Source: Ceratodon purpureus (taxonomy: Eukaryota; Streptophyta; Bryopsida; Pseudoditrichales; Ditrichaceae). From it: DNA of 64,000 nt. The notes under the pieces are model-generated. The model worked only from the letters and a program-made list of their open reading frames with translations, was not told the origin of the DNA and did no database searches. The first letter of the stretch is position 1, and every line of letters begins with the position of its first letter. Of this stretch, positions 13,230-34,402 are shown piece after piece. The position numbers were made by a program, and so were the translations under genes. The stretch spans positions 52,314,478 to 52,378,477 of the forward strand of contig CM026426.1 in the NCBI GenBank assembly GCA_014871385.1, written 5' to 3'.

Positions 13230-13239
13230 CCAGGAGTGC
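13230..13239. repeat. MULE target site duplication, left copy
   Basis: CCAGGAGTGC directly precedes the element. The identical 10 bases recur at 34393-34402. Because the element itself ends in a C run, the true duplication may be 9 bp. A 9-11 bp duplication is typical of Mutator-like elements. Confidence 0.85.
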
Positions 13240-13312
13240 GGGGAAAGTTAGCATGCGTGCGGCGAGCGGCAAGCGGAGAGCGGCGAGCAGAGATGAGAGA
13301 GCAGAGATTTGA
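13240..13312 (+). repeat. MULE left terminal inverted repeat
   Basis: It begins GGGGAAAGTTAGCATGCGTG and continues with GCGGCGAGCGGCAAGCGGAG AGCGGCGAGC. The right end read inward gives GGGG..TAGCTTGTATGG.AG and then GCGGCGAGCGGCGAGCGGAG AGCGGCGAGC. The core of about 30 bp matches with one difference. Confidence 0.85.
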
Positions 13313-13814
13313 CATTTTACCAAATTTTTGGAAAAAGAAATGCACCCTATAACCGTGGTGAAGTACTAAAATTAGTGTACTATTTTTGGGAATCAGCTAA
13401 AAAAAGATAATTAATTTTGTTGTATTATTTTTTGAAACTACTTTATTTCTCATTCACTTATAAACGACATTTATATAGGGAAAGAAAATTAGGGCTGACG
13501 TCGTGCTGACGTCATGTTCATAGCTAATCAAGAGAGAATATTTAGAGTTAAATGAGGTCCAGGTCTTCTTTGCTTCTGGTACAGTGAAAGGAATTTTGCA
13601 TAGCAGATAATATACCTTTTGAAAACTTCTTTGGATATTTCAGAATAGGTGTACAATAATGCTTATAATGAGTCCAAAATTATATACCTCCTAGAAATGC
13701 CTGAAATTATTGATAAATTCTTTGTCTTCAGATAGGATCTAGTGTACCTTTTAAAGTCTAGTATTATACCATATAAACCTAGGTGGGTTGAGTTCAACTT
13801 AATTCAATCTGCAG
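13313..13814. other. MULE left subterminal region
   Basis: AT-rich sequence between the left inverted repeat and the first ORF. It probably contains the promoter of that ORF. No repeats or motifs stand out. Confidence 0.35.
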
Positions 13815-14372
13815 TTGGTTGAACTGAGTGTTGCTTATGGTAGACATAGTTTTGAGAGTATGAGCAATTCCCTTGAAGTCATAGCTTGTGAAACAATTCT
13901 TCAGGATTTGCTACAAAGGATGGCAGATGGACCTAACCCTTGGGAGTCAGTGGGATCTTGTACAGGACAGTCTTGGTCTCCTCCACCAGTAATTACATTT
14001 CAAGATGTTGAGAATGCTCGTGCTGTTTCGAAGCTTTGGAATAGGGAGATTGACAGCAGTACAGAATACGCTTGCCTTCGACTTGCCAAGTGGGATTATG
14101 ATTCATACACGGGAGGGCACTGGACTTCCAGGGATGAGTTTCAAGCGGTTCGCTTCAATGTGAACTGGAACATTTTTAAGAATTCTTGGTCATTAGCAAA
14201 TCCAATTGGAAATGACAGGCTAGAGACAGCGTCACTTGGGAAACTTAGCTGTAGTGAGTTAGATCAATTGAGGACATTGTTAAGTACCAATGGTAACCAC
14301 TCTCTGTGGCTTGAACCTGGAGAAAAACTTATTCCAGGTGATGGTATTTGGGTCTCACCTAAACATAGATGA
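13815..14372 (+). CDS. F-box-like protein encoded in the MULE (185 aa)
   Basis: An intact plus-strand frame. Residues about 25-40 read CETILQDLLQRMADG and residues about 58-85 read VITFQDVENARAVSKLWNRE followed by YACLRLAKWDYDSY. The order (helical L-x-x-L stretch, then A-R-A-V-S-K-x-W) resembles the second half of an F-box, the motif that binds SKP1 in SCF ubiquitin ligases. The match is weak and the usual N-terminal LP motif is absent. The rest is unrecognised. It is the first gene inside the left end. Its presence next to a RING-like protein gene would suit a ubiquitin-related role, but this is inference. Confidence 0.45.
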   Translation: MVELSVAYGRHSFESMSNSLEVIACETILQDLLQRMADGPNPWESVGSCTGQSWSPPPVITFQDVENARAVSKLWNREIDSSTEYACLRLAKWDYDSYTGGHWTSRDEFQAVRFNVNWNIFKNSWSLANPIGNDRLETASLGKLSCSELDQLRTLLSTNGNHSLWLEPGEKLIPGDGIWVSPKHR

Positions 14373-17059
14373 GAATGGTATGACTATGAATATATGGATT
14401 CAACAATTTTGCATACAATAATAAAATGTAGTTAGTTCGAAAAACAGATATGTCTAGTCCGGTTCAGGGTTTATCATTGTATTCATAAAATCTTACAATA
14501 TTCAAGATGCGTCATTAAGTTTATTCCATTATGTTACTAAATGTTTATTCAATACGATTTAGTAAAATTTCTATAACTGTATGATAGTTTTTTGTGTTTT
14601 TATTATCCTTGTGCATTTATTTTTATTTTATTTTTAAACATATAGTTGTATCACGTATAATCAAGAGACTTCTAAATATTCTCTGAAAATTTGTATTTAA
14701 TAATTTCATTTTCTCATTTCTGCATTCCTGAATCATTTTGAATTAAATTTACCTTTTATATACTGCTTATGTTTTTTAACATCCTTTTTTCATTTTTCTT
14801 TTTCTTAGTGTCAAACTGTTCAGTAATTACTGTCTCTTTTTAATTACCAATATTTTCTAGTACTTTCAGACCTTATATTTCTTGTTGCATTATCCTTATT
14901 AGTTTTACATCTAGTTAGATTCAGGTTTTCCTTTGATATTTATCATGTTCTCATAATTGGATGACCATCATCCTATCCAGAATGTTTAGATGAAAGGATT
15001 ATGGGTGACATGTTACGATTCAGCTGTAAATGGTATCGGCGCATTTAATGAAGCCGAACGATACCCCGTCTCTGTCGAAGGTACGTTGAAGAATTTACAC
15101 CTAGACCTAGTACATGTCTGCCTGCTCCGTGGATTTTCATTCTTGGTTCTCGTGTCTGCTGACCTTGGAGGGTCTACACTTCTTATGTGTCTGGAATGTA
15201 TTAGAGCAAGCACAGTTTAGCAAGAATGTTTTCATTTCTCTGGACATGGTAGGTCAATGCATTGCTCATTCGGACTTTATTCACTAGGTGCATTTTTCAT
15301 AGTTTTTGTAATTGAGAGTGTTGGACTAGAAGAAGTTACAGGATATTCATTTAGATATTGAGATTTCACATTGGTAATGTTTCGTTGCAGATGATGTATC
15401 AAATAGATTCAATAACGATTCAGCTCGAGTGCTAGAGGTCTTCACAAACCTGATAGAAAATATCCTGTACATTTTGCAGCTTTGCGAGAGAAGGTGTTTG
15501 CGAACCTCGTCTAAGGAAAAGCCAATACAACTCAAACGTAAGTTCTGGTTACAATGTCAAGTTCTGATTTGTGTTCGTCAAATTCAGTGAATTAGATGAT
15601 TTGCTAGGGCGCTTCAAAGTTATTTCTCGGGTGTTAGGCGGCATGCTGTGGTTGCTTTTTGTCAGCATTCATTTTCTAGTTCTGTGCATTCCTGATCCGA
15701 ACTCATTCTGCTCGGTTTCTTCCATTAACAGGTAGTGGAGTTTTGATACTTTTTTTTATTGGATCAAGGATATTGAACATGCTGCTTTTATTCATTGCAA
15801 GTTGTAGTACTGAGTAATTTAGAACACTGTCGCATAGTTTAGAAGAATCTACCTGAAAATCAAGCCAAGCCACATCAGCTGCATCAATCACCTGTATCTT
15901 TCCTTTAAGGATCAAGGAATGTTTAAGTGAAAGTTACCCAATTTTAAGTACAATTAGGGGTAACAAGAATAGAGTTGGGAGTGTGAATCACGATTCTATT
16001 CTAGTTATGCTGAAATGTCCAATTCAATTTCACGACATGGTTAAGTTTTTTGTTGATTTAGAGAACTTGGAGTGCACTTCCGGAGTTCCGTAAACAGGGA
16101 CTCCCAGTTGGAATTTTGAGAGACCGTATCTTACTGGCCGTCACGTTTCTCAGGTATTAAGTCAAATTGGCTGTTGCATTCTGCAAATGTAGGCTAATAG
16201 TAATTTTTTGTGTTCGGCTATATTCTGAGCTGCATCTCACCACACTTCTCTTATTTTCTATGACCAAGTTGGAACTTTAGAAGCTTCCTAGATATTATTT
16301 TGGTATCACAAGCTGAGACGAACACCATTTGTCAGTTACTGCGTGTTGATTTGTAACTGATATTCTGTTGATCGAATAAGCGTTTCAGGATGATGATGGT
16401 GCGAGTCCAAAGATGCGGGAACCATTGAAGTAAGTCCATCTCTTCATGCTATCACCTCTTTGAGTATTGCCAATGTGCAATTTGCTATCAGACCACACAT
16501 TGTATTGGATTTTCAGAATTAATTGTTTAGAAATTTCACTTCTTATATTTCAATCTTCTCATGCAGAAAGGTGGAGACTGTTCAACAGCTCGATGCATAT
16601 TCTCCATCTGTTCAGGTACTCGTCTTCTGAAAAGTGCAAGATAATAGCTGATTTGAATGTTTTATGTCTTGCAGCTTCTTGGGAATTAGTATTGGAACTC
16701 AATCTCCATCGATTTACAGGAGCCGACATTGCTGCAGGTACCAGAATTCTCCAAGGTATCATTCCTAAACTGGTGATGGATCTCTTCTAAGTTTCATCCC
16801 TATTTTTTTCTTTTCCTTTTGGTTTCTACTTGCACCTCGTTCCTTGTTTTGCTCAAAACTAGGGTTCTCCATCTGCGTTCGAGGATCTTGAAACTGGTAG
16901 AGGATGGAGATCATGAGTCAGTTCTGGCATTATGTAAGGTTTGCTTATTTGAAAAGCCTTGTTATTTTCTTCGCTGATGGTGGTTTTTACTTACAATTAC
17001 GCAAAAATCTGGTGGTGTTTTTCTGTACAGGTTTCAGGCATTGCCATAGTGGTTTGATC
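14373..17059 (+). other. Region of small exon-like stretches between two MULE genes
   Basis: 14.4-14.98 kb is very AT-rich and looks non-coding. From 14990 several short stretches are bounded by acceptor and donor sites: about 14990-15080 (ends GTCGAAG^gtacg), 15392-15538 (starts after cgttgcag, open in one frame with SARVLEVFTNLIENILYILQ), a stretch near 16060-16152, 16390-16429, 16567-16615 and 16675-16738. The frames do not join cleanly under one simple model. They may be 5' exons of the RING-like gene at 17060 or a separate small gene. No product could be assigned. Confidence 0.3.
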
Positions 17060-18535
17060 ATGACGTCCAAAAGGAGTAGAGGAAATAGAAATCAGCGGAC
17101 CAAGAATACTCCTCCAATCGAAGCTGCCGAAAGTGGTGATGAAGTGGCCCAGAATCCAGTGGAAGAGTCCTTGATGGAGCGCTCCTACTGTGCTGAAGAA
17201 TTCGATCAGCCATTTGACCTAGGAGATATACAAGGAGACATTCGTGAGAAGATGTTACTTGTAGCTCCAATGCTGCTGGGTCAATATGCTGAGTATGGTA
17301 AAGATTTCTTTGTGAATGTAGTAGGTTTATGTGATCAAGGACCAAGAATCCGGGACGTGGCCAAAGTGTATCCATTTATTAGAGACGAAGACATCGGTAC
17401 AGTCTGGAAAGAAGGGGCAACAAAGGGACGCTACGAGCTAGCAAGGTGCGAGGATCTGGAGTTGTTGAAGAAGTTCCGACATCATTTCTTCAAGGTCTAT
17501 GGTAACAAGCCTGACAATACCTACTTCCCTTTGCGTTTTCTCAAGGCTTGCTATGCAACCTTTGTGCATAACAAGCCTGTCAACTGGTGTGCTGAGGCCC
17601 TTGATCGGCACAAAGCAAGACTGAAGAATGCTAGGCGCAACCCGGCTAATTTGGGCCCCATTGCGACTCGATGTCAAGTTCAGGGCCTGATTAATATCAT
17701 CCAAGAGTTGTCATGGAGGTCTGGAGAAAATGCCGCGAATGTTCAAGAGCTATTGGCAGTTCAAGAGGTGGAACAAAGAAGGAGTAATGAGGTCAATAGT
17801 GCACACGCTGTGTTAGAGGGATTTGAGGAGAAATACAAGGCAGCACTAGATAGGATGACCAAAGAGGCTTCAGATGTTGCAGAGGACGCTCTAACAGCGA
17901 AGTATTCTGATCTACAGAAAAGGTCTAGGCGTGTCCTCCTTGAAGGGGGCTCACCGCAAGAATACAAGGCTCTGACCAATGAGATGGAGGCCATCACTGT
18001 TCAAATTTCCAAGATACGAGAAGCCGATGCAGAGATACAAAGGGAAGTTCTTGAATTCAGGGCAGAGGTAAACAAGCAGCGTTTTATTCATAGATCTGCT
18101 ACTTTAGCCTGGGAGAGCGCTAAGGCTAGTGTCGAAAAGGTTAGAGGTAAGTTAATAACCATGAAGACACCTAGAGTCTTCGATTATCCACATGAGACAT
18201 CCATGCCTCCATTGGGTATTCCAGGGAAGGATATCTGCGCCTACTGTGGCTTAGGCTTTGTTTGGAAAGCCGCAGTGGTTTCTTCATGTGGATGCATGTT
18301 GCACCCACCTTGTGTTGCAGAAATGATTGCAGGTCAGATCTATAAGTGCAAGAAATGTAAGGATCAGCTTCTTGCATCGTCACCTTTACATCTGACAGGA
18401 CCATGGATTGCTCAATTTGGTGGAGAGTTGGACCAACATCACCAAGCGGAATGTGCTGGATTCACTACTGTTCTACAGGCAGCAAAAGAGATGGATGGGT
18501 GTGCTGAGACCAATCAATCTGGAGCCAAAGTGTAG
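17060..18535 (+). CDS. Coiled-coil protein with a C-terminal RING-like zinc finger (491 aa)
   Basis: The frame is open from 16904, but a splice acceptor (tgtacag, about 17032) precedes the ATG at 17060 (MTSKRSRGNRNQRTKN), which is the preferred start. A basic N-terminus is followed by an uncharacterised globular segment (KVYPFIRDEDIGTVWKEGAT; LELLKKFRHHFFKVYGNKPD). A long heptad-rich region follows at about residues 230-370. A cysteine-rich finger lies at about 390-435 with spacing C-x2-C-x13-C-x-C-x2-H-x2-C-x11-C-x2-C (CAYCGLGF...CKKC), a RING-like pattern that could bind two zinc ions. RING proteins are commonly ubiquitin or SUMO E3 ligases. The family was not recognised beyond this. The frame is intact. 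Confidence 0.6.
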   Translation: MTSKRSRGNRNQRTKNTPPIEAAESGDEVAQNPVEESLMERSYCAEEFDQPFDLGDIQGDIREKMLLVAPMLLGQYAEYGKDFFVNVVGLCDQGPRIRDVAKVYPFIRDEDIGTVWKEGATKGRYELARCEDLELLKKFRHHFFKVYGNKPDNTYFPLRFLKACYATFVHNKPVNWCAEALDRHKARLKNARRNPANLGPIATRCQVQGLINIIQELSWRSGENAANVQELLAVQEVEQRRSNEVNSAHAVLEGFEEKYKAALDRMTKEASDVAEDALTAKYSDLQKRSRRVLLEGGSPQEYKALTNEMEAITVQISKIREADAEIQREVLEFRAEVNKQRFIHRSATLAWESAKASVEKVRGKLITMKTPRVFDYPHETSMPPLGIPGKDICAYCGLGFVWKAAVVSSCGCMLHPPCVAEMIAGQIYKCKKCKDQLLASSPLHLTGPWIAQFGGELDQHHQAECAGFTTVLQAAKEMDGCAETNQSGAKV

Positions 18536-20264
18536 GGAGCAGTGATAGGGATATGCATTATGTGGGGCAAAGGGACTATTATACTGATAGGTTGTTATAG
18601 GTTGTTAAACTGAGTTGCCTTATGGACTGTTGTACTAAGCTTTTGGGGATGAACTTGCAAAGGATATGTACCTAATATGTAAAGCTTATTTTAATATTAG
18701 TTTATATACCTTCAATCATAGAGTAATATAAAACAAGCAGCTTGCCGTTACTAACTGTTTTTCAAAGCCTTAGTCTGAATTGCAACATATACAATGTGAT
18801 ACTATTGTGCATTTGATTTTGTACACAGACTATAAAAAGTGAAACTTTGTTTTCAAATACTGACATTGATCCTAGGCGCCAACAGTATTGAAGTGGTATT
18901 ACAGAAGAATTCTACGTCCATTGGATTACAATATACGTTGTTTAATTGCACTAAGCGAAGATGAATTCTGTATAGTCTTTAAATTAAAGTTAGTGTGGTC
19001 CAGAAAAAAGATTAATTTAATTCCAAGGGGAGGGGAGGGGATGAAAAGAAGACCGGAGGAGGGGAGGGGAGGGGATGGAAAGTGGGCGGGGGAGGGTAGG
19101 GAAGGGGAGGGGAGGGGATGGGAAGGAGACGGGGGGATGGGAGGGAAGGGGAGGGGAGGGGATGGGAAGAAGACGGGGGGAGGGGAGGGAAGGGGAGGGG
19201 AGGGGATGGGAAGGAGACGGGGGGATGGGAGGGAAGGGGAGGGGAGGGGATGGGAAGGAGACGGGGGGAGGGGAGGGAAGGGGAGGGGAGGGGATGGAAA
19301 GAAGACGGGGGAGGGTAATGACATAAACACACTGTTACTAATTTAATTACATGTACCTTTCATCGCATTTCATATTAAAACATCTGTGAGGATCTTGGAT
19401 TTATAAATCTAGATTTTATTTGCAATTTTTTCAGCTGAATTCTACATAATTCTTTTACTTTAATTTGATTTAGAATTTTGCAAATAGAAATTTATTAAAT
19501 AAAAAAAATATGAAGAATAAATATGGTATTCGTCCAATTGCAGCATGTATAATTTTCAAATTTGTCTCCTTGGTAAAGTTATTAATAAGCTTAACACTTT
19601 TTATGAAGAATATGGTTTGAGCATGTATTTCACCGTCAATATTTTGGATCATTAATTTTCTCTATATGAAGAATAATGAATTGTCCGTTGTATTTCTTTC
19701 TTCATACGGGTAATGACATAAATATTCCAATGCAGACCAAACGAATAAAATTAGTTAAAGATGTTTGATATTGAAAGATGTATGGACCAACCACCGTCAG
19801 AAAATAAAAATGTGCTCCCTTTCAATGGTACTCTATGCTACTATATTGACTCAAAAAGTAAACTTTCTCAATGCGTGATAACTCATAAATAATTACGAAA
19901 ATACTCATGTGGAAAAGCATATCACCGTCGGAGTATGATTCGAAGGTCTTGGGATTATAAAAGAACTGTCCAGCAAAACAAAGCTTTACTTTGTTGACTA
20001 GAGTTCGGGTCGGTGAGATTCAAAATGTGTACAATATATTTAACCATAATTGTTCTGAGTGAGGTCAAATAATCCACTGTGTCAATACGCTTTTGCATTT
20101 GCTAGTCCAGAAACAGTTATATTTGTACGGCATAATCCAAAACCCACTTCTTCAGACATACTTGTGAACAGAGAGCATTCAAGTGCAGGAGTTCAAAATG
20201 AGAATTATCATGTGCAGTTTGAGGTTAATTTCACAAATTTGAGAATCTCAGAGGATTAAGAAAG
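18536..20264. other. Intergenic region between convergent MULE genes
   Basis: Apart from the minisatellite, the region is AT-rich and without convincing exons. A 15 bp direct repeat (GGGTAATGACATAAA) occurs at 19313-19327 and 19708-19722. Confidence 0.4.
19022..19316. repeat. G-rich minisatellite, 44 bp period
   Basis: Plus-strand sequence made only of G, A and a few T. The marker AGACGGGGG recurs near 19127, 19171, 19215, 19259 and 19303, exactly every 44 bp. Alternate units differ (GGATGG versus GGAGGG), giving an 88 bp higher-order unit. It contains many G3-G6 runs and could fold into G-quadruplexes. It lies between the 3' ends of the RING-like gene and the methyltransferase gene. Confidence 0.9.
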
Positions 20265-23200
20265 CTAAGGAGAAAACAGGTTGTCACTTTCAATTGCACT
20301 GTGATCAATGAACTTGAGTACATTAGGGTCATAGTAACGTGGTGAAGACGACGCACTGGAACTATGCTCAGATTCATCTGCAAGGGCCTGAGCTCTGGCC
20401 TCGGCATATGACGGGAGACTCCAGCTGTTCTCGAAATCAAAACTGGACTCGCTGGAAGGAGAAGTGCCACTCATGCGACTGCAACACATATTTTAATAAT
20501 TAGCATTTAGGTAAATGTACATAATAAATACTGAAGATAGCTATATTCAGAAATAGCGTGAGCATAAGACTTACTCACATAGATCAATTTTATCTTCCTC
20601 CGGGTATGGAGCTTCTTCATCGGACAGCTCTTGAACATCAGTGTGCTCGGTTCCTGTGGTGCTTATTAAAGGCAATTGAAGTCGCACCAGAACCTCCCCA
20701 TAAATTTCTCGGTCTCCTTCAAGTGCAACTATGTTCCTATTGTTTGCTATTGCAGCGCGGACCGAGGCACCTGAAAAATGAATGCAATTTAGAATGATGG
20801 ACTGATGTGAAGTTTAAACATGGAATTCAAAGAGTCGCAGGGATGCATACCTGTACCAGCAGTGAGGTCGACGATGGTCCCCTTTAGAGGACAAGTACCA
20901 GTAATGAGGGTCTGGAGTAAAGGAAAGGACTTCTCTTTCGGGCCCCTCCAGGGCTTCCCCTCCGTATTCTTGAGACAATCCTCCAACGTAACCCAGTTAA
21001 ACAAGACGTCATCTTTTGCCAGGTTTGTCATTCCCACGCTCTGGCTGGAGGAAAGAAGAAGAGGCTTCGGCTGCCTGGCTACGGTGGCTCCAAATGATCT
21101 CACCAGCACGTACGCTTTGAATTTTAAAGTCTAATGAAAAAACATTGCCACACCAGAAGGATCATCACTCAAGTAATTTTATGAATTATTGACGATATGA
21201 AACTTTTAAAAATTGTAAACAAAACTAGCAAAAAACTTACATAGCTCCCGGGGTCTGTGGGATGAGACAAGTGGAGTGCGTTGATTATGGACCACTCCTT
21301 CAACTCCTTAAGGTCATTGTTGTTGAGGAAGGCAGTCAACTCTTTCTTAATATGAGTGCTATCAGGAGCAAAAATCAACAACGCTCCATCGTCGTGCAAA
21401 TATCCACCGCAGAAACCAATAACAAACTTGATGAAGAATTTTATTTGCTGGTTCCAAGCAGGTACTTGGGAGGGGGGGTCAGACACTCCAGGAACCGCAA
21501 GGCCGTCAGGGAAATCAGCTATCACAAGGTCCACCCCAGGCTTATATGGTTCGAGTTTCCCACCAAAGTAGAATTCCCGATTCGCACGAGTCTGATTTCA
21601 CATTGAAGGCAATACATTAAACGATGAATTATAAATAATACCGTAAAATAAAAAGCAGAGTAAAGGTATAATAAAAGTACCTTAAGGAGAAATGCTATCA
21701 TGTCGTCGAAGGATTTTGGAAATTTCTTTTGCTTGTTCTTGTACTCCATCATCTTTGGAAAAGAATCGTTAAGGACCAACACCGCAGAGGAATGTGCTGA
21801 GCTGGACGAAGGCTGGGATATAACCAAGGATTTTAGCGATGGGGGGATAAGAGGGGTACTTGAAGCAGTCTCCATATTTTCAACATGTGGCTTCTTATGT
21901 ACCAGCGGCTTTGGTGAAGGGGACTTTGGTGCAGGTGCAGTCTCAGCAGGGGCTTCTCTTTCAACCAACTCACCACTCGCAGCCGTTGTTGCAGGGATGT
22001 CTTCGTCTTGAGTCTCCTCAATCTAATCCGTGGCTTTGCGTTTTGCCCCCCGAGTCTTGTTTGCTCCAGCAGCCCTTCTGGACTTCTTTGTCGCGGTAGG
22101 AGACACACCTGCTTTAGCTGGAGCTGGTGCAATGTTTGCAAGTGTGGGCTGAAGAGAATCTCGGAGCTGGACATCGAACGGAGGTGGTTTCTTCACCGGG
22201 CAGTCAAGATACCAACCACAACGGTCATAGTGGCAGTTGTCCCATGCCTTCAGGATTGCACTCGTATACATGCACTCGGGACTAGTGATGTCAAGATATG
22301 CAGGAAAGAAGGGAGGTACCCGTGTCACTGCTTTCCTAGGAAGCAATATGTATTTGAAATATCGGTAAAGGATTCGTCGCAAAGCTGGCTGGAAATTGGG
22401 CTGCTGGTCCTTAGTCTTATTCTTGTGTGCCTGATCAGCCCCCATGAATTCTCTGAAAAACGCATTGTCCCAAAGGGAGCAACGCATGGCCTCTACATAA
22501 TCAAATATTTTCTCAATAGGATTCTCGCCATCTGGGCAATAATTAATTGTCACCCCTAAGTCGGTGACAACCGCCTCAAATAGCTCCTCAGCTTCTACTG
22601 CCAACTGAAAAATCAAAAAGGTTATTAGCAAATTAGAAGGCTAAGAAACAAGCATTGAAAACAAAGACATTCCAATCCTCAATTACACATGCTTAATTGT
22701 GACCTTATGCAAAACATTGGTAGCCATATGGTAAATTGAATTAGTGAGCATAAAAAGTAACTGCCGTCAATTGGAGCACTAAAACACAGTATCATCAAAT
22801 CATTACTTTTGAGACCATGCAAACACGGCCTGGCATTCACTGCCATATTGCCAATCAATCGAAAGAGAAATGAAGACTCTGGTACTGCCGTTAACGGCAG
22901 TACATTGGGAGTCTCTACCGGCAAAACAAAAAAAGCTCTGCAATGTACTGCCGTTAACGGCAGTACCGGAAATGCGCATAAGAATTCTAATGCAAAACAG
23001 CTAACTACTACTTCTCCTACTTCCTCAGCATCTACTGCGAAGTGTCAAGGAGATTATAAGCAAATAATACTCAAGCATTAAAAACATTTAAAACAGGAGG
23101 ATAATATTCGAGATTCAAAATAATATTTGCTAATGACGAAGACTAATGGAAGACTAATGGAAGACTAATGGAAGACTAAGGTACTACAACTGAAGCTAGG

Positions 23201-26200
23201 AAATTTCACTTAGAAGAAGAACCAGGTTCATTTTGCTGCAGCCCCAAATTTGTGAGGCATGTAAAGACTATCAGTGCCATATAATTAATAAAATAAAATG
23301 AAGCTTTCAATTGTGTGCCATATAATAAATAAGTAAAATGAAGCCCCTGGTACTGCCGTTAACGGCAGTACATTTGGAGTCCATCGCGGGACTTAACATA
23401 CTTAACATCGAAGCCTCTGGTACTGCCGTTAACGGCAGTACATTACAGGTCCATCACGGCACTACAGAAAAAGCTGGAAAACGTACTGCCGTTAACGGCA
23501 GTACCAAACCAACACCATTGAATTACAAAAACAGTGAAGCCTCTGGTACTGCCGTTAACGGCAGTACATTAAGAGTCCATCGCGGCACAAAAAAAAAGAG
23601 CTTGACAATGTACTGCCGTTAACGGTAGTACCAGGGGCTTCATATTCGAAGTATTTAAAAACTCATTAACGAGTTTATAAGAAATGTAGCTAAAGCCCAT
23701 ATAATTCAGATTCCACTCATAAGTCGCATGCTAAAAGAGGAAACAAATTATTTACTTGGTACTGCCGTTACCGGCATTTCAAAAGGAGTCTTGCACGGAG
23801 AAACACAAAGACCATAAAAATGTACTGCCGTTAACGGCAGTACCAAAAGAGTATATCAAAACATCTAAATTTGATGCCGAATCAAAATTTTAGAAGTTGT
23901 AAAACAAACAAATTATCTGAAATATTTGATAATGAAAACGTTACCCGTGCCCACCACGTGACTTTGTGAAGCCAAGGAGGAAACACCGTGTCTGCAAAAG
24001 AAGGCTTGGGGAACCTGTGGGACTTTCGGATTGACTCCGGGGAGTTCCAGCGCTCTAACCACTTGATTTTCATCTTAGTTGGGATTGCAGATGTGGCAAA
24101 CATGTTCATTTTCTCCTGCTGCATTTCTGGGGACGGAAACTTCTCATAATGAAGTTTAATTTGCTCAAGAAATGCCGGTGTATGCTTCGGATCCGCCACC
24201 GGTAAAAGTTTCTTCAGCTCCCCTTGTTGAGTGGCTACGACTTTCTCAACTGCTTGTCGAACCCATTCATCTACAGACTTGTTTGTCCACATGTGCTTCT
24301 CGGGATACATTTCGTAGAATCGCTGCTCTGCACTTGAAGCCGCTTCTCCAATTTCTTGCTGTGGAATCAACAAGCAATGATATTAGAAAATCATTAAAGG
24401 TGAGGAAAGATTAAGCAATAAGTATTAAGGCAGTTGAGAATTACCTGGTATAGAAATGCATTGAGTGACTCTACAGTCAGAGTATACCAAGTCCTCTTTG
24501 CACCCGCTTGCTTCTTCTTGGCACTCTCAATTGCCGCACTTGGAACAAGCCCTTCAAAGTAACTGAATGGCTGCGGTGCAACACTCTGTATTCTAAAAAG
24601 TTTGTGGACCATATTCGTGGTCACATGAGACTTCTGATTTCTCCTGCACATTTAAGGATCAATCAGTTATTTAAAGATCCAAAATCTAAAAGGGTATCGT
24701 GATAAAATATAGAGACAGAATGCTTACCAATTAACTTCGTGTAAAGCCGCTATGACTGCTGGAACGTCGCCTTTCGGGTCCAGTATAATGCTCTCAACTT
24801 TGTAATGCCAGTTTAAGTCCCGGGAGTGATACTCGTTTATAATGGGATACCATGCCTGCAGCCGATGATTACCATCCCATACCATAAACATTTTATTAGA
24901 AAAGACCTTCAGATCCTCATCCTCTAGCAGCGTCTTTTCGAAAGCTTCATTAACCTCACGCCATTCCGGGCTCCAAGTGTTTGTGATAGCCGGAGTAACT
25001 TCAACATCAGATGCCCCAGGTTATCCTGAAGAGAGACATAGAAGAACCCGTTGCCTTCCAAGTATCCTGTCTTCACGAAGAACGATGCTAGCTGCGAAAC
25101 ATCTGTCTTCAAATATGGCCTCACAACTGGAAGAGACTGCATCCGACAAAGTGGTATAAACAATCTGCCCTTAGCTTTAGGCTCCCACTTCAAGTCACCC
25201 AACCGCAACGCAGTATTCGGAATCTCCTTCTCAACAAGATCATGAAGCTTTGCTTTAACTTCGCTCTCTGTTAAGGAGATAGCATCTGCACAAGAATATA
25301 GACAAAGAATCATAACGTCAGATCCAAGTAACAAGAGTACAAGCAAATTCACGCGTGTGTTCAAAGCAGTACCAATAGAGTAATGATATGAGACTTGCAA
25401 TTAGATTTAAAAGAACTGCCGTGAGAGACATTACTAAATCACAAGCTAAACAGAGCACAATGGTGCCTTTTAATAAGTATGGTCGAATTTTAGAGACAAT
25501 TAAAAAGCAACCAATTTGAGTGCCGTTAACAACAAAAGTCCACAAAAACAGTCGTTACAGCTGAGTAACTCCATTACATATCACTGGCATCGATATCGAA
25601 AATTCAACACTGTTTATGTACTGCCGTTAACGGCAGTACATTTGAAGCAAGAAAAGATGTCAAATCGAAAACATGAAAATGTACTGCCGTTAACGGCAGT
25701 ACTGAAGCGGCATACTGCAATGGTCCACGACGATGGTCAGTTATCATCAACAATACTCTAACAACTAGATGAACCGAGCTAAAAATCGCATTCTGGAGTC
25801 GAAAGATGAGACATCCAACAGGCCTGAAAACATACTGCCGTTAACGGCAGTACAAAATCATCCAACTGAAAGCTCACATCTTGTTGGATGATTTTGTACT
25901 GCCGTTAACGGCAGTATGTTTTCGGTCCGCAATGATGCCAAAACATAGGATTATTTTGGTCAGACAGAATGTACTGCCGTTAACGGCAGTATAAATGCAG
26001 TGTGTAAACCGTTAGAGGATTAACATTCAATGGTCCCTTATAATTGTCCATTTTCTTAAGTTAGTGTTACTAAAACAGCATCTTCATACATTTAAAACTT
26101 AAATTATAATAAAATTCCCTCAAAAATGAGCTGCCGTTAAAGGCAGTACCAAAAAGGAACTAAACAGAGACATAGATTAGCGGCTACATGGGTACTGCCG

Positions 26201-28657
26201 TTAACGGCAGTACCCTGAGGACGTCTTAAATTGCAAAATATTGAGAAATTCATCACATAGTCTGGGTCAATATCCGTTCATGGAGGGTCGTAAAATGCCT
26301 CACAAATGTACTGCCGTTAACGGCAGTACAAAATCAACATACTAATAATTCTGAAAAAGTCTTGGGTTGCACATATAATCAATCAGAAATCTAAGGCCAA
26401 CTATTGCGCACGACACAAATTAAATGCGTTGCTTTTGTACTGCCGTTAACGGCAGTACGTTTGAGGTCAGTCAATATATCAAACCGGAGGATTTAAAATG
26501 TAGTTCCGTTAACGGCACTAATTGTCAACTCCCACTAAGGTACTCTAACAATGAGTTTATCTTCGAACCAAAACAACATGATAAATAATATAATGCCTTC
26601 TAAACTGTACTGCCGTTAACGGCAGTACATGATTCGGAACTAAACTAGAACGAAGATGAGCGGCGACATGGGTACTGCCGTTAACGGCAGTACCCTGAAA
26701 ACATTTTCTATTGCGAAGTCGAAGAGATGTGCACACCTAGTCTGGAGACTGTTACCGGCAGTTACCGTTAACGGCAGTACAATTTGTGATGTACATGAGA
26801 TTGGAGATTGACTGCTCTATTAGAACTGCCGTTAACGGCAGTACCTTATTGGTCCTTGAAAAATTCATCCTCAATCATCTGCTGTGAATAGTTAATACAA
26901 TTTGTTAGTATAATACTGCTAGAAAACTTTGAATACTCTCGTTTAAAGGTGATATCTATTTCATTTGATTTACGCAATATGGTGAATATCGGGCTACACT
27001 TTGATTAGAAAATAGGTTAGTACGATTACTTAATTATACCTATACCACTTAAGGCTTATTTACAAACAATCTTCTAAGACTTTGACACAGAATCTAACTG
27101 AGCGTCCACACTAGTAATGTTAACGGCAGTACCGTTTCATCTAGAACTATGTAAGCAAATGTCGTGCCAAAATTGTACAGCCGTTAACGGCAGTACTTCT
27201 ACAGGGCCTTTCATCAATCTCAAATCGAGCATTCTTTGAATAAGACTACCCTTGAAGTTTAACTATGACTAAAGGATACGTAAAAATAAATGACATTATA
27301 ATGTTGGCAATCAGGCTTAATGTAAAGAGAAAGTGATAATTAATGGCAATAACTTAGAACAGTATGCTAATGCTAATGGCCACATTAGTACTGCCGTTAA
27401 CGGTAGTACGTTTGTGAAGCAAATCACAAACATTGAAGACCCGGCTGCCGAGAAAATACACAGGCGTACTTTGCAACATCAACCTATATTCAAAGAATCT
27501 GTGTCAACGTTTGTAATGCCGTTAACGGCAGTACTATCGACGAGCAAATAAGTCAGAGCTTAATAATCGTAGAAAAAATGAAACCCATCTAAAGAACGAC
27601 CTAACTCCAAAGAATCATACGGCCTGTCTGTAGATGAATTACGAGTGCAATTTCAAATAACAAAACACGCAGTGCAGCAAGTGAACAAATATGGCTTACC
27701 TTCAGACTGCTCCGGCCTCGGCTCGTTATCAGCGTCGTCCTCTTCATCGTCCTCATTGTCGTTGTCATCCTCACCGTCATGGCCATCTTCACCGCCATGG
27801 CCATCGTCACCGCCATGGCCATCCACATCTTGCATGTTCTCGTCTTCATTGCCGTTTCTCTCCGTAGGCAAATCAGAATGAGGCGTCCTTAAAGCCTTGT
27901 CCTGCGTCACTTCTTCTTTGGATTGCTCCGATGCCTCCTGCTGCGTACCCATCATCAAACACGTTCACAGTAAATAGTCTAATCCAAATCTGCAAAAACT
28001 GCTATTGCGAAAGCTCTCAACCCCCTCAATCAGCTAACCAAATAGACTTGTACCCCGAAAGAAGTAAATGAGCTAACCCGATTCTCACACTGAACTCACG
28101 ATAACGAATCTCCTGCAGCAAGGAAGGTGTCCAAGCTTAACCCTAAAGGAAGCCAGAGAAGATGAGCACATAAACTGAAATGAAGATAAGTCGAAGGCAG
28201 TATTGGAGGTGGTAAAGGATGGGCGATCTTAACGAGGTCTTAATTATTTGGGGAACCTAAAATAAGCTACCCGGCGATGTTAACTGTCGTGTCAAAGGTT
28301 GGTAATAATAACACTCAGTAGGCAATTGAGTAAAATTCAGTAGGCTATTTTCGAAGATAAAACATGATAGCAGATGAAACATACCTTATTTCCAGCGCTT
28401 ACACTTGTATCAGATACCACGACTTTTGAGTTTTGATGCTTGTGACGTCTTCCGTAACGCAATGTGCTATCTTCTTCAATGCCCCCCAATGCTGAATCTC
28501 CGTCTGTCTTCTCAAAGTCTAATGCTCTAGTTATGCCATCCTTCTGAAATCTTTCAGCCTCTTTTCTAGCTCTAGCCATCTTACTACGTCTAAGGGCCTT
28601 AGTGCTACTAAAATGAGACGACACTTTCTTTCGCCGCTTCTTAGGTATAGCCAGCAT
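20265..28657 (-). CDS. ParB-like + beta-class DNA methyltransferase protein of the MULE (10 exons, ~1216 aa)
   Basis: Proposed exons: 28657-28385, 27940-27700, 25285-24728, 24643-24445, 24358-23945, 22604-21681, 21591-21241, 21130-20851, 20770-20575 and 20478-20265. All have GT-AG borders and agreeing phases. Residues 1-170 are basic then very acidic (GHGGDDGHGGEDG repeats). Near residue 309 VWDGNHRLQAW resembles a ParB/sulfiredoxin-type motif. From about 890 the methyltransferase motifs appear in permuted order: DLVIADFPDG (position of motif IV, normally DPPY-like), GALLIFAP, AYVLVRSFGA, then EGKPWRGPKEKSFPLLQTLI (X), VDLTAGTGASVRAA (I) and NIVALEGDREIY (II). This order is that of beta-class N4-cytosine/N6-adenine enzymes. 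Two breaks are seen: a 1-base loss in the C-run 25014-25017 and an in-frame TAG at 22023-22025. With the lost base restored the length is a multiple of three. Confidence 0.7.
22882..23843. repeat. Palindrome array A, in intron 5 of the methyltransferase gene
   Basis: Nine copies of a 22 bp palindrome (half-site GTACTGCCGTT plus its reverse complement). Starts: 22882, 22945, 23350, 23420, 23483, 23546, 23610 (one change), 23759 (diverged) and 23822. Start-to-start distances are 63, 405, 70, 63, 63, 64, 149 and 63 bp. Several spacers share a weak consensus (AGTCCATC.CGGCAC then AAAGCT), so some pairs are old duplications. The host intron spans 22605-23944. Confidence 0.95.
25618..27534. repeat. 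Palindrome array B, in intron 2 of the methyltransferase gene
   Basis: Eighteen copies of the same 22 bp palindrome. Perfect copies start at 25618, 25681, 26192, 26308, 26437, 26607 and 26672. Single-change copies start at 25832, 25896, 25971, 26823, 27175, 27388 and 27513. More diverged copies start near 26128, 26500, 26759 and 27111. Pairs are again 63-65 bp apart (25618/25681, 25832/25896, 26128/26192, 26437/26500, 26607/26672, 26759/26823, 27111/27175), and some larger gaps are close to twice that (129, 125). The intron is 25286-27699, 2.4 kb, and the array fills most of it. Confidence 0.95.
25826..25923. repeat. 98 bp inverted repeat built around two palindromes
   Basis: Arms 25826-25866 and 25883-25923 are exact reverse complements over 41 bases (starting GAAAACATACTG and ending ATCATCCAAC), separated by a 16-base loop. 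Each arm contains one 22 bp palindrome, so the DNA could form one large hairpin or two small ones. Confidence 0.9.
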
Positions 28658-29239
28658 AGCACACTCAAAACATTAAGAGGCAAACAGCAAAATGATAGGT
28701 TACACTCATAACAGCAAAATGCACACACACCCTAGAAAATAGATGACAAGAGCTTCAGTCATTTCTTATATAGAGTCCTCTCATAATAACGAAGAATACA
28801 TGGATGAACGATATCTGTCCTCTACAACATTGACATTCAATTGAATCTGCAGACTTTCAAATCGTGCAAAGCCACAATTGAAGGGATTTTCTATTTACAA
28901 CTATAAATAACAATTCCAATACCAGATCTAACTAGAGTTTATTTCAAAGACGGCTATGCCTAATAATGTGCAAACATTAGACGAGTAGAAAGTGGACCAT
29001 GATGCGAATTTTAAAAATACTTTGGAATGACACGTCTGCACACCAAACGACGGCTCCATAATTGATTCATTCTATTCTCTCATAGTCCTTTTCATCTACG
29101 AATATGAGGTATATAGAATTCACTTAAATGAATGTGTAATTCTACTTAGAATAAATAGAGTGAGCACAATGTCCTATTCCTCTCAATTCGTGTTCACAAA
29201 TTCTTTTAGCACCAGTTCATTCTATCAGCACATCTTAGC
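28658..29239. promoter_or_regulatory. Bidirectional promoter region of the MULE
   Basis: 582 bp separate the start codons of the methyltransferase gene (minus) and the transposase gene (plus). A minus-strand CTATATAAG (28765-28773) lies about 110 bp before the methyltransferase ATG. A plus-strand TATATAG (29110-29116) lies about 125 bp before the transposase ATG. None of the 22 bp palindromes lies here. Confidence 0.5.
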
Positions 29240-32200
29240 ATGGCTCATCTCCCTGCAAACAGAGTGTTAGGCATGGCCGTGCTCAGAGCACACGGTGTTG
29301 GTATTCCACTTACAGTACGTGTAGATGAGGATGGCTTGGCTCTTGTGACGGCACAACGCCTTAGCCTCAGATTTCACTTCAGAGAGGAGACTATCTGTTT
29401 AGAGGAAGAAATTTATGATGATGAGACAAATGAGATTACACATACGCTAGATCAGGTTTCTGAGAAAGATGATGATGATAACAGGTTCTGGAACCTTTAT
29501 CCTGGTAGATACAGAGTTTATGGTCTTACAGAGTCCGAGATGCAGGCGTCTACTGAGATTCTAACTCCTCGTAGATCATCTACTGTTCAGACTCCTCTGC
29601 CTCGTGATGTGAAGGTTAAGGTAGAGCCTGGCTTGGACACTCCTGATGTAACACCAGTCATCTCCCTCTCATCAGATGAGGAGACTAGTCCTATCAAGGC
29701 ATCACCTGCTTTGCCTAGAGAGACTGTAGTATCTAGCACGCCAGCTACACTACCAGAGAAATGTGCCAATACCTCACAGACATCAAAGGAGGAGACTGTC
29801 AATGTACTGCCACTCATCAGGACACTTGCAGAGAGACCTGGGAGGAAAAATATTCTGAAGAGAATAGATTTCTCCACAGTTCGTCAGGAGAAGGTGGAGT
29901 ACTTACCTGCAGTCTTCAACAACAATGTCATATTTGAGCTCCCTCCAGTTGGTGACGGGGCTTCCAAGACGCAAGCGAAGGCTATGAAGGGGATGGACAA
30001 GCGGTACGACGGCCACATTTGGACGAAAACAATCACTACCAACATCACTAACGAGTTCGGCCTGTCGTTCCGCTATTCTAGCTGCGTTGGTTGGCTGCGA
30101 TGCGTCAACAAAGAATGTATCCTAGGGCATGTATCCATCAAGGAACACATAATCATCCAGTGAAGGTTGGAGACTATAGAGACACTAAGGAGGAGATCAA
30201 TAGCTTGATTGAAGAACAGGTGGAGAATATTCCCCGGGCTACGAAGAGCGCCGTTGTCTTGGAGGCTAGCAAGATCCTGATTGGGAACTACCTCCTACAG
30301 CCTGAGGACGCACCACCGAAGAAGCTCACTATGGAGGAGCTCATTCCTGTACTTGACCGGTGCAAGGACATTGCTTCCCCAAATATCCGCAACAAGGTGA
30401 TGACGTTCAAGCGAATTGGAAGATACGGAGTGATGGACGCCATCACCAAACTCCTTGGGATCAGTTTGTGGGCCTTCGTCCAAGAGAACAAGTTCCCGGG
30501 CCAAGGAGCTGACAGAGAGAAGGTCTTCGTCTTCAAGATGTCAGAAGTTGGGCCGGGTTGTGGTGTCGACTTAGTCACCAGAATGCAACCTGGTGGGGAT
30601 CTTGACAATGCTTGGATTATGTTCGACCACGTGAAGCGTGTACGGGATTGGTCCACGATGGCTTGCCATGTTTATGACGCCACCTACTGCCGCGTCATGA
30701 CGATTGCAAGTTGCGACATGCAATCCGAGGACACCGAGGCTCAGCTGGTCTTCTGGAAGAACCTAAACAGCGTTATGGAGAGGAATGGCGTTGCAGCGCC
30801 AAACTTTAAAGGCTTCATGGCGGACAATGCACAAGCAAATTGGAATGCGGTGCGTATTCTCTACAGAAACGGCAACAAAGAAGACAAAATGGAGGATCGG
30901 GAAAGGTCATGCTTGTTCCACTCGACCCAGAACATGGTCCAGTACACTGACAAGTACTTCCTCGAAGAGCTCCGGGAACAGCACAAGAAGATGTGCAACC
31001 AGTATAGGACAGCAACGACTTTGACAGAGGCGGACACTCTTTATCACGCGTTGCAGGCATGGTGGATATCTACTGGGGTCCTGGGAGAGAAGGCCCTAAC
31101 CAATCTGGGGACTTGGCTCGCATTCTGGCACCACCGCTATCGTCAATGGGGTGGATTCATGTCTGCGGTATGATGCTACTAAACCCTGCTGCAGTACTTG
31201 TTTTCTGTAGAGGTAAATTTACTCAACATCACTTCTATAATTGATCCTAATTATTGTAATTGCTCAAACTGCAGAAATTTACTGAAGAAGAACTCACAGA
31301 GATGCCGACCTGTAACCTCGCCGAAACAGTTCACAATAAGTGGTTACAAGCATCAGGTAACAACGGCAGCGACCTCTATGTTGCGACTGTGGACGATTAC
31401 GTTCGCGGCTTTCTGCAGGTTGTAAACTACTACCAGTTCCTGAAAGGAGATGTAGGCGGAACTGGACCTTCAAAGAAGGAACTCAAGCTTCAAATGGCGG
31501 AACGCTTGGCGAAGAAAACAGGAAATCCTAAAGTCCTTAAAGATCCCATGCTGGATATGCCTGGTGCAGATGAGTTCTGCACCCGTGAGCCTGTCCTGGC
31601 CGGAGCAGAGGTGTTTGGATCACAGAAGCGTAAGGCGGACGTTCCCATCGGAGCTGACGAGGAGTCACACCGACCAGACAAGGTTAACTTCTCACGTCCT
31701 AGAGGTGTTGGACGCAACGTTCGAGCTCGCACTGTCCAGCTGCCCATCATCGTCGAGGACGATTCTGAAGAAGAAGAGGCCCAAGAATCTCCCGCCCAAG
31801 AAGCTTACTCGCCCCCAACGTCTCCTGTGAACGAGGTCGGCGTTCGCCATGTCAACGCTGTTGAAGAAACCAAGGTTGATGTGAAGGAGTGGCACATTGC
31901 AAGACTTCACAGAGCTTCTGCAAAGTGCTGCTGGGCCCAAAGAGCTGGTACAAAAAAGAAGTGCACTGAGAGAATTGTCAGGGGCCCAAACTTCACTGCT
32001 GCACCGACCTACACCGGAGTTTGGACAAACTATCGCAGGAATACGGTTGAGAGGACAGAGTTTTTCTTCTGCTCCGATGATATTGAGCGCTGCGTGAAAG
32101 GCACAAGGCGCAAGTGGGTTGCACACTACTCCAAGGACCTCGAAGTGCCGCCGATTCCAGAGGTGTGGCCTGTAAAACTAGGTACTAACCTGAAGCTTAA

Positions 32201-32759
32201 TGAGATCCTCGCCCTTGAAGCTGCAGGGTTCCAACTCCCGCCGAAGAAGCCTGTCTCCCCAAGACGTCTCTTCTCGTCTGCTCCGCCTCCTGCAAACCTC
32301 GCTTCGTTGCCGATTCCAGCAGAGGCTGACCGCTACCCTAGTAAGCGAGATGGGAAGATGGTCAAACGCACAGCAACTCGACCTAACCCAGCGCAGCGAC
32401 TCTCCATGGGCTCCTCTCAGTCCCTCAAGGCTCGCCTCCGTTCCATCACCATGATACCTCATCCAGGCCATGGTTGCATTATCGGGGTGGATTCGGGCGT
32501 TGCTCCAAACATCACACAGTACAACATCACCATCACCTCTTACCCGAGTTGCACTTGTCCAGCTTTCAGGAAGATGATGACTAAGTTTCGAGGTAAGATA
32601 CAGTTTTCATACTGTAAACATATTTACTACATCCTTTTAAAGGTCTGCAACCGTAATCCGGAGGCCGAGCTTTTCATCCATGCGCCTACCTTTAGTTTCA
32701 ACGAAGTCAAGCTAGTCCTAGAGAGCGGAATCTTGACACACCCCTTGGCCAAAAAATAG
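29240..32759 (+). CDS. MULE transposase with zinc finger and SWIM finger (2 exons)
   Basis: Exon 1 is 29240-31167, the intron 31168-31274, and exon 2 is 31275-32759, about 1137 residues. Start ATG gives MAHLPANRVLGMAVLRAHG. The N-terminal third has VKVEPG (SUMO-site-like) and VISLSSDEE (SUMO-interaction-like). A zinc finger reads SCVGWLRCVNKEC then ACIHQGTHNHP (C-C...H-H, GCM/FLYWCH/WRKY-like). The catalytic region has CHVYDATYC (about residue 478), GFMADNAQANW (about 527) and the MULE C-x2-H motif SCLFHSTQ. The third acidic residue was not assigned. Exon 2 opens with MPTCNLAETVHNKWLQASG and ends with a SWIM finger (CTCPAFRKM...SYCKHIYYIL). The frame shifts once inside the zinc finger near 30118, so this copy may be defective or misread there. 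Confidence 0.8.
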
Positions 32760-33018
32760 GAGGCACTATACTATTTTGGTCTCAAGTATGCATAGTGGAC
32801 AGTGGTACATGCGGATACTTAGCCGGAGGTGATTGAATTTTTCCTTGTACTGAGTCAGCAATACAAATCTCGTATTGCCTATTTCAATATAAAGGTTTTG
32901 TCATTCACATTTATTACGTTGTATTACAATACCATTCATTTCAACAAGTGGCATTTGTTATTTATATCAACGCACAATTGGACTGTACTCAGTCCATGAA
33001 TACATTCAAATATAGATT

Positions 33019-33519
33019 TTATTCCTTGAACTTAATGCGTTTAGGTATCCCCTTCGCATTTTCAGCACAATCACGAACTACCTCCTGCACTACAGGACAA
33101 GCTACATTGACATTCATTGTTCGTTCCCTAATTGGCACTTGTCGTGGGCGGGGACGTTTCAACAATGGAATAGCTTCACTCTTTCCACGTAATGCCTCCC
33201 TAGAATAAGTCCCCGGTGGAATCTTCCCGACCTTGGAGTATGCATGAGGTGCGAAAGGGATAATCGGTTCCTCCTGGGTAACTCCGAGAACGCGTGGCTC
33301 TTCTACAGCCACTATGTCTCCTATCACATCTATTTTTGCTTCCACGCCATCATTTTCAAAATGCCCTTCATTGCACCCATTCAACTCCTCTTCTCCCTCG
33401 ACCTCCTCGTACGGATGAAATGGGCCAAGGACATCACCAAGTGAGATAGTGGTTTCCCCGGCAACTTCCATATCACAACACGCTCTTCTTGGAACTTGAT
33501 TCAAGAAGAGCACGAACAA
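33019..33519 (-). CDS. Small acidic protein next to the MULE right end (up to 166 aa)
   Basis: An intact minus-strand frame, tail-to-tail with the transposase gene. The ATG at 33519 (MFVLFLNQVPRR) or the internal one near 33472 (MEVAGETTISLGDV) could start it. The centre is acidic (YEEVEGEEELNG) and the C-terminus basic (PKRIKFKE at the end, LLKRPRPRQVPIRERT before it). No family was recognised. Its intact frame and position inside the element suggest an accessory transposon protein. Confidence 0.5.
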   Translation of the reverse strand: MFVLFLNQVPRRACCDMEVAGETTISLGDVLGPFHPYEEVEGEEELNGCNEGHFENDGVEAKIDVIGDIVAVEEPRVLGVTQEEPIIPFAPHAYSKVGKIPPGTYSREALRGKSEAIPLLKRPRPRQVPIRERTMNVNVACPVVQEVVRDCAENAKGIPKRIKFKE

Positions 33520-33818
33520 AGAGGATGAGAGCTTCTACTGCCACTACTTAAATATTGAGGAGGTAGATGCTCGGCGCCCTTGAATAGTGGGATATATAAG
33601 AAGGTTTAAATATTATAACACTCCATGGCATGAGTAGGTTTGTCATCACTGTTTTGATAAAATACCCTAAACCATCAATGGAGAGTGAACTAGAAGGTCT
33701 TTCAAAAGATAAAAGATAAAAAATGAAAAGGTAAAGACTTAGATGATAGTAAACTGGAGGACGAATGAAAAAAAAAAAGTGTTTAAAAAAAGTAGAAATC
33801 AAAAAAGATAAAAGATAA

Positions 33819-33863
<45 letters not shown>

Positions 33864-34319
33864 TTGAAGAAAAAAAAGAAAACAGTGTAAAATAAACTAA
33901 AATTAATGATAATAGAAAATAAAAACAATGAAAAGATAAAAGGTATGAAATTTGAAAATAATTAAAAAATGATTAAAGATAAAAAGAATAAATGATAAGA
34001 AAGAGTTAAAAGATAAAATGTTAAAAAAAATTAAAAATTAAATAAATATAAGATAATAAATGCAACTTCTAGATGATGCATTAATATGAACCGTAAATAG
34101 TATTTAAAAATAAATCCAAGAAGGGAATAACACAAATGAAAAATCAAATTTATCAGAAATAGTGAATTCCAGTCCACGGTTATAGGGTCATAATTATTAC
34201 CAAAAATAGTAATATTCTCAGAGTATTCTAAAAATATTCTGAGAATATTCAAATTTGCTAATAATAGTTTTTATTTTTAGTAATAATATTACTGTTTTTA
34301 GATTTAGACCTCTATTTTC
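33520..34319. other. AT-rich MULE right subterminal region with (TA)n
   Basis: Extremely A-rich plus-strand sequence with many GATAAAA-like words. A TA dinucleotide run spans about 33820-33861. No gene is seen. Confidence 0.7.
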
Positions 34320-34392
34320 TGCTCGTCGCTCACCAAATCTCCGCTCGCCGCTCTCCGCTCGCCGCTCGCCGCTACCATACAAGCTACCCCCC
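34320..34392 (-). repeat. MULE right terminal inverted repeat
   Basis: Inverted partner of the repeat at 13240-13312. The shared core is the GCGGCGAGCGG / GAGAGCGGCGAGC segment. Beyond about 55 bp the two ends diverge. Confidence 0.85.
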
Positions 34393-34402
34393 CCAGGAGT
34401 GC
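34393..34402. repeat. MULE target site duplication, right copy
   Basis: CCAGGAGTGC, identical to 13230-13239. On the minus strand it supplies the codons that join the two halves of the tnp2 exon. Confidence 0.85.

Follow-up and report, generated by a model that had tools for sequence, protein, structure and literature searches.

The introns of a methyltransferase-like gene, carried by a Mutator-like element of the moss Ceratodon purpureus, contain a dense array of 22-bp palindromes, and each array-bearing lineage of the family that was scanned has one dominant palindrome. Comparisons of sequence among copies make it probable that these palindromes are docking sites, most likely read by the methyltransferase-like protein that the element itself encodes and most likely serving to counter silencing. 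The array was studied in a window of 64,000 nucleotides, to which all coordinates refer unless a contig is named.

The element spans 21.2 kb (13240..34392). It was delimited by the edges of homology to other copies, at 13236-13237 on the left (C10 and C3) and at 34391-34392 on the right (C10, C11, C12, and C3), and by alignment of its ends, terminal inverted repeats that start GGGG(A/G)(A/T)AG and align over 56 columns. Comparison of the flanks gave a target-site duplication, CCAGGAGTGC, at 13230..13239 (9 to 10 bp, its edge blurred by a run of G) and again as CCAGGAGTGC at 34393..34402. Duplications of 9 to 10 bp were present in all three copies for which both flanks were compared (the window, C10, and C3), and those of C10 and C3 differ. 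The methyltransferase-like gene lies on the minus strand (20265..28657) and has nine introns in the splice-aware window model, and the transposase gene lies on the plus strand with one intron (29240..32759). A further plus-strand gene, g3 (17062..18535), encodes a protein that has a coiled coil and, at its end, a cysteine-rich part called RING-like, a name given by eye alongside a subthreshold zf-RING-like match; g4, on the minus strand (33019..33534), is a 171-codon open frame that is 95 to 96% identical in copies with the type B palindrome described below. The window methyltransferase-like gene is broken by one frameshift and one in-frame stop. The window transposase lacks 196 bp near 30118-30122 that are present in four compared copies, including C10, and is therefore probably inactive. 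The transposase gave no profile match to the MULE transposase domain, and its matches to the SWIM zinc finger fell below the cutoff (E values of 0.11 and 0.15). Between g3 and the methyltransferase-like gene is a purine-rich tandem array (19058-19315; 5.9 copies of a 44-bp unit) whose length differs among element copies. The element seems to have inserted into a CACTA-type transposon (12832-13365 and 34304-37282); the frame in the right flank leads into tnp2 (Transposase_21, E value of 6.3e-62, 35756-37282), and in the left flank, read by eye, there is a further long frame of the same orientation.

Scanning the whole window with GTACTGCCGTTAACGGCAGTAC (given as the plus strand, the site being its own complement) returned 28 sites at up to 6 mismatches, 14 of them perfect and all inside 22882-27534, from the first perfect palindrome at 22882..22903 to the final one, with 1 mismatch, at 27513..27534. 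This reproduces the first-pass annotation, which had counted about 27 copies with 14 perfect. Its placement of the sites in introns 2 and 5 alone also stood: among 25 sites scored against the splice-aware gene model, 9 were in intron 5 (22605..23944, minus strand), 16 were in intron 2 (25286..27699, minus strand), and none were exonic. So did the repeated spacing of 63 to 65 bp, noted for at least 12 pairs and found here for 12 of the 27 successive gaps. Across nine copies, 178 of 178 sites were intronic in the stretches scanned, with model introns making up 47 to 63% of the gene and intron calls being rough in the divergent N-terminal part.

The gene around the arrays is maintained in other copies. 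Intact models of 1,220 codons, without stop or frameshift, were obtained from C10 and C12, and in diverged pairs the gene is under purifying selection (dN/dS of 0.04 for C10-L026, 0.10 for C8-L027, 0.09 for C11-C1n, and 0.08 for L030-L034, where any dS above 1 is near saturation); recent pairs gave 0.31 (C10-window) and 0.61 (L029-L030). The C-terminal part of the protein matched the N6_N4_Mtase profile in all five relatives (best E value of 1.2e-8), while the window-type protein alone fell below the cutoff (E value of 0.0059). Pfam scans of single exons found no methyltransferase match, whereas the spliced protein together with its relatives did match. PDB profile matches of the C-terminal part included DpnA (E value of 7.8e-6) and CcrM (E value of 0.0065), and the protein shares with these beta-class DNA amino-methyltransferases both the fold and the order of motif IV followed by motif I. 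The GxG of motif I is kept. Motif IV, however, reads DFPDG, DFSDG, EFPDG, or DIPEN in all 13 models that reach it (6 partial models end short of the motif), compared to DPPY in CcrM; the catalytic consensus [DNS]PP[YFW] was found in 0 of these 13, being replaced by D/E-F/I-P/S-D/E-G/N. Catalysis has presumably been lost or changed, and its conservation is not supported. The moss protein also differs from CcrM and DpnA in its long N-terminal extension and in being encoded by an intron-rich gene of a eukaryotic transposon. Searches of phages with tblastn returned only methylases covering at most 23% of the query among the matches listed, and a scan of viral contigs found no relative of the protein. 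At one locus (L013, C12:4704940-4714939), a second methyltransferase-like gene, 36% identical, starts at the end of the C12 element, an arrangement which suggests that one element was inserted in an intron of another.

Relatives were collected from the 362-Mb genome by using the transposase as a query (112 places scored of 2,307 candidates) and by using exons of the methyltransferase-like gene (best 150 of 1,950 candidates scored). Besides the neighbors of the window, the comparison drew on 17 genomic places, which yielded 18 gene models, with L028 too partial for the tree. Palindromes in each copy were sought with an unbiased gapped-palindrome scan that used no preset motif (expected numbers of about 1e-4 each), and arrays were present in seven of the eight gene-tree lineages. 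The lineage palindromes follow a common plan, GCCG-N4-CGGC plus flanks, with both arms altered together. Type A is TGCCGTNNACGGCA, which occurs 23 times in C10 and is found again in L034. Type B is TGCCGGNNCCGGCA (13 times each in C11 and C3, 14 in L025, and 10 in C1n). Type C has the core of type A with AGTGCC arms and GCAGTGCC flanks (29 times in C8 and 15 in L027), and type D is CTGTCGNNNNCGACAG (16 times in L028). Types E (L031) and G (L032) are given by GCCGGTACCGGC, with 7 and 8 copies, respectively, and type F (L033) is ATGCCGNNNNCGGCAT, with 5. Relative to the half-site ACTGCCGTT, type B alters the eighth base, type C the second, and type D the fifth, in both arms each time.

The gene tree, of 18 rows, separates lineage A, lineage A2, and the groupings B plus C1n, C plus G, E plus F, and C4 plus C12R; its first lineages are about equally distant, at a core identity near 0.67. 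Sister genes share a code in the case of E and F (the GCGATGCCG flank) and in that of B and C1n, but the sisters C and G, 74% identical in the core, have different codes. Lineages A and A2 have the exact 22-mer in common, although their proteins are 54% identical and at least as distant from each other as from those of B or C. Apart from these two cases, C with G and A with A2, the codes track the lineages. Sites in A2 are 98 to 107, 116, 127, 157, or 163 bp apart and not 63 bp. In an alignment of the A and A2 genes, exons 3 to 5 and short stretches at the 22-mer could be aligned, plus a few matches of less than 20 bp, and no homology was found between the A and A2 spacers. Copy C8 has two palindrome species, with AGTGCC and ACTGCC arms. 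Three type C sites of C8 lie outside the methyltransferase-like gene, between both transposase open frames, and fit its lineage; this trio is the sole case seen of a matching code beyond the gene. In the same copy (L018), at positions -3832 to -2550 relative to the transposase mark, the type C flanks vary symmetrically (AAAG/CTTT, GAAG/CTTC, and AAGG/CCTT), which could reflect dimer contacts or correction of the palindrome by template switching. The 30 kb of C4 held no site of types A to D at up to 4 mismatches, and palindrome scans of the C4 gene region, of C12R, and of the 6 kb that precede the C1 transposase found none of this plan. A C4 signal, TCCGGANNTCCGGA (16 times), stems from a tandem-repeat region.

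Type A sites were found at 1,663 genomic places at up to 3 mismatches, a count that may take in type C sites, which differ by 2 to 4 mismatches. The reversed pattern was found at none, so the sites are not due to chance. Type B gave 556 places versus 19 for its control, and type D gave 1,776 versus 0. The first-pass annotation expected the 22-mer to occur only in related elements, and this was checked on the six perfect-site clusters among the matches listed, which run from the beginning of contig C1 as far as C2:4.75 Mb. Four of these adjoin a family gene, as judged against the best 150 of 1,950 methyltransferase-like gene candidates, and a fifth (C1:28054001-28054399) lies 11 kb from a family transposase; the last is an isolated perfect type A site at C1:7086405, where the 3 kb around it (L001, C1:7084905-7087926) showed no similarity to the element. 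Six of the seven type B clusters among the matches listed adjoin a family gene, and the other, at C1:16394904-16397128, had no family gene among the best 150 of 1,950 candidates.

The view that the palindromes outlast their spacers was borne out in the more distant comparisons. Between C10 and the diverged L026, identity in introns 2 and 5, respectively, was 0.81 and 0.91 for sites compared to 0.45 and 0.49 for spacers, and between C10 and the window it was 0.98 and 0.96 compared to 0.93 and 0.87; in intron 2 of the near twins C10 and C12, the order was reversed (0.986 for sites and 0.994 for spacers). The exact 22-mer is retained at a dS of 1.4 (L030-L034) and of 2.2 (C10-L026), values near saturation. 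Two of ten window spacers of 63 to 65 bp resemble another at 0.76 to 0.79, where shuffled spacers reached no more than 0.68, and a pair is similar at 0.74; the regularity of the array is partly due to duplication of site-bearing segments.

The 63-bp spacing had been read as six helical turns. We examined gaps of up to 330 bp, collapsed per group to 47 distinct values with L031 to L034 left out. The best period was 10.60 bp at a phase of 0.03 turn (R of 0.47), with a P value of about 4e-4 (2 of 5,000 jittered sets equaled the observed fit) that is optimistic, since gaps from related copies are not independent. With the period fixed at 10.5 bp, the signal was weak (mean cosine of 0.19, P value of 0.03). 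Whole helical turns are therefore retained from the original proposal, at a 10.6-bp period, but 63 bp is no general rule: unit lengths in other lineages are about 74, 106, and 210 bp, and arrays of 106 to 108 bp and of 211 bp are regular. Because unit lengths differ in this way (63, 74, 106, and 210 bp), tandem copying of one unit fails to explain the common phase.

Which protein might read the sites was addressed by comparing elements that carry different codes. From 28993 to its right end, the window element is 92 to 97% identical to C11 or C3, and its left 1.2 kb is also common to C3; the methyltransferase-like genes are 54 to 55% identical in the same comparisons, and the codes differ. A cassette of gene and sites has been exchanged beside a transposase half that is nearly constant. 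Lineages A, A2, B, and E all have transposases 95 to 98% identical to that of the window; next to C1n, whose gene has the B code, DNA identity of the transposase drops to 76.6%. Since transposases of 95 to 98% identity adjoin arrays of at least three different palindromes, the transposase is unlikely to be the reader. The RING-like protein is likewise unlikely, because g3 is missing between the ends of C3, which has a type B array. The earlier suggestion that a protein of the element reads the site remains the best reading, narrowed to the methyltransferase-like protein, which elimination and co-divergence point to as the reader. The exchange leaves this protein unproven in that role because the sites lie within its gene. 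An argument that the exchange between A and B is a double dissociation naming the methyltransferase was dropped, as sites and gene are linked and A2 has code A.

It is possible to assign the sites to a host DNA-binding protein, of the MYB type or another, which the element exploits. Two opposed TAACGG cores lie within type A, and the persistence of one site in A and A2 despite a gene identity of 54% is what a common reader from outside the element would produce. However, the palindromes of types B and G are without the TAACGG core, which disfavors the MYB alternative raised in the first-pass annotation, and a single host reader would leave the lineage-specific codes of elements in one genome unexplained; we consider a host reader unlikely. 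Plant transposases bind repeated internal motifs, and the arrays sit in mobile copies, as would suit internal recruitment sites used in transposition by the transposase or another element protein. This explanation is very improbable given that near-identical transposases adjoin type A, B, and E arrays, that sites in the scanned stretches of nine copies lie only in the introns of the gene and none at the ends, and that g3 is missing from C3.

Neutral turnover would require no reader at all: a palindrome-prone tandem repeat would spread by duplication and keep its symmetry through template switching. The duplicated spacers, the symmetric variation of type C flanks (GAAG/CTTC and AAGG/CCTT), and the regular arrays of 106 to 108 and 211 bp are all in keeping with such a process. 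Turnover does not readily account for retention of the exact 22-mer at dS values of 1.4 and 2.2 and at 54% protein identity without spacer homology, for helical turns shared by the gaps of different lineages, or for the lack of sites in exons, and we doubt that it is the explanation. The sites are also self-complementary, intronic, and transcribed, and so might work in RNA as hairpins, in splicing or as precursors of small RNAs. Phasing at 10.6 bp has no reason in RNA, however, and complementarity is not preserved at the center of type D, which leaves RNA hairpins with the lowest probability among the alternatives.

We hypothesize instead that a two-fold symmetric protein docks on the palindromes, which would act in cis as DNA. 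The methyltransferase-like protein would bind the phased copies, dozens of them, that its own introns contain, presumably as a dimer, and the bound arrays would mark the element, along with its family, for a local effect that is most likely a shield from host silencing by analogy with VANC in Arabidopsis. As the sites are within the gene of their putative reader, sites and reader would travel as one cassette upon recombination between elements, and each lineage would be free to drift to its own code.

The closest parallel is with VANDAL elements. VANC21 binds arrays of YAGTATTAY in noncoding parts of VANDAL21, including introns, and VANC6 recognizes motifs other than those of VANC21 (Hosaka 2017, PMC5735166). 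On the basis of that and a second report (Sasaki 2023, PMC10398659), VANDAL and the moss element share a Mutator-like element with an accessory gene, dense repeats of a short motif in noncoding parts that include the accessory gene's introns, motifs that vary between related elements, an accessory protein that diverges far faster than the transposase, and target regions with turnover of tandem repeats. VANC motifs are 8 to 9 bp long, nonpalindromic, and in one orientation, whereas the moss motif is a palindrome of 14 to 22 bp phased at 10.6 bp, and VANC proteins contain DUF1985 and DUF287, whereas the fold of the moss protein is that of a methyltransferase. Neither DUF1985 nor DUF287 was matched in Pfam scans of the entire methyltransferase-like protein and five relatives, and the moss element is therefore not classed as a VANC member. 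On our best reading, it would work like VANC/VANDAL with an unrelated protein. A literature survey of partial coverage, without bioRxiv and judged by title or abstract, found no description of such an element.

Palindromic nucleation sites are also a feature of the ParB/parS system. By eye, the conserved block KMFxVW(D/E)GNHRLxAW resembles the ParB/sulfiredoxin signature. Four segments of the protein gave no Pfam match to the ParB family at E values up to 10, which lends membership in that family no support. A more far-reaching version of the proposal, which we put forward only tentatively, is that a captured bacterial-type methyltransferase, now noncatalytic, has become a sequence-specific self-recognition factor. 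It would nucleate in ParB fashion on the helically phased palindromes of its introns and counter silencing, with private codes arising in each lineage and passing by cassette exchange between elements that have one transposase in common. If the proposed mechanism is correct, sequence-specific transposon anti-silencing arose at least two times, with unrelated proteins. The genome would then hold a natural series of readers and sites (at least A, B, C, D, E/F, and G) beside near-constant transposases, which would allow a direct test of co-evolution between a DNA-binding protein and its site, and the location of the sites in the reader's own introns would explain why code and reader stay joined.

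Two further observations concern the transposase copies. Upstream of an 82% identical transposase, locus L021 (C4:12053155-12063154) contains a 117-bp unit repeated 21 times and a 2,052-bp unit repeated 3 times and is rich in TCCGGA. Contig C6 holds 54 of the 112 transposase matches, and its share varies with identity, amounting to 18 of 19 matches at 91 to 94%, 5 of 5 at 86 to 90%, and 7 of 30 at 97% or more. Old copies thus seem to persist on this long contig, which is perhaps a sex chromosome.
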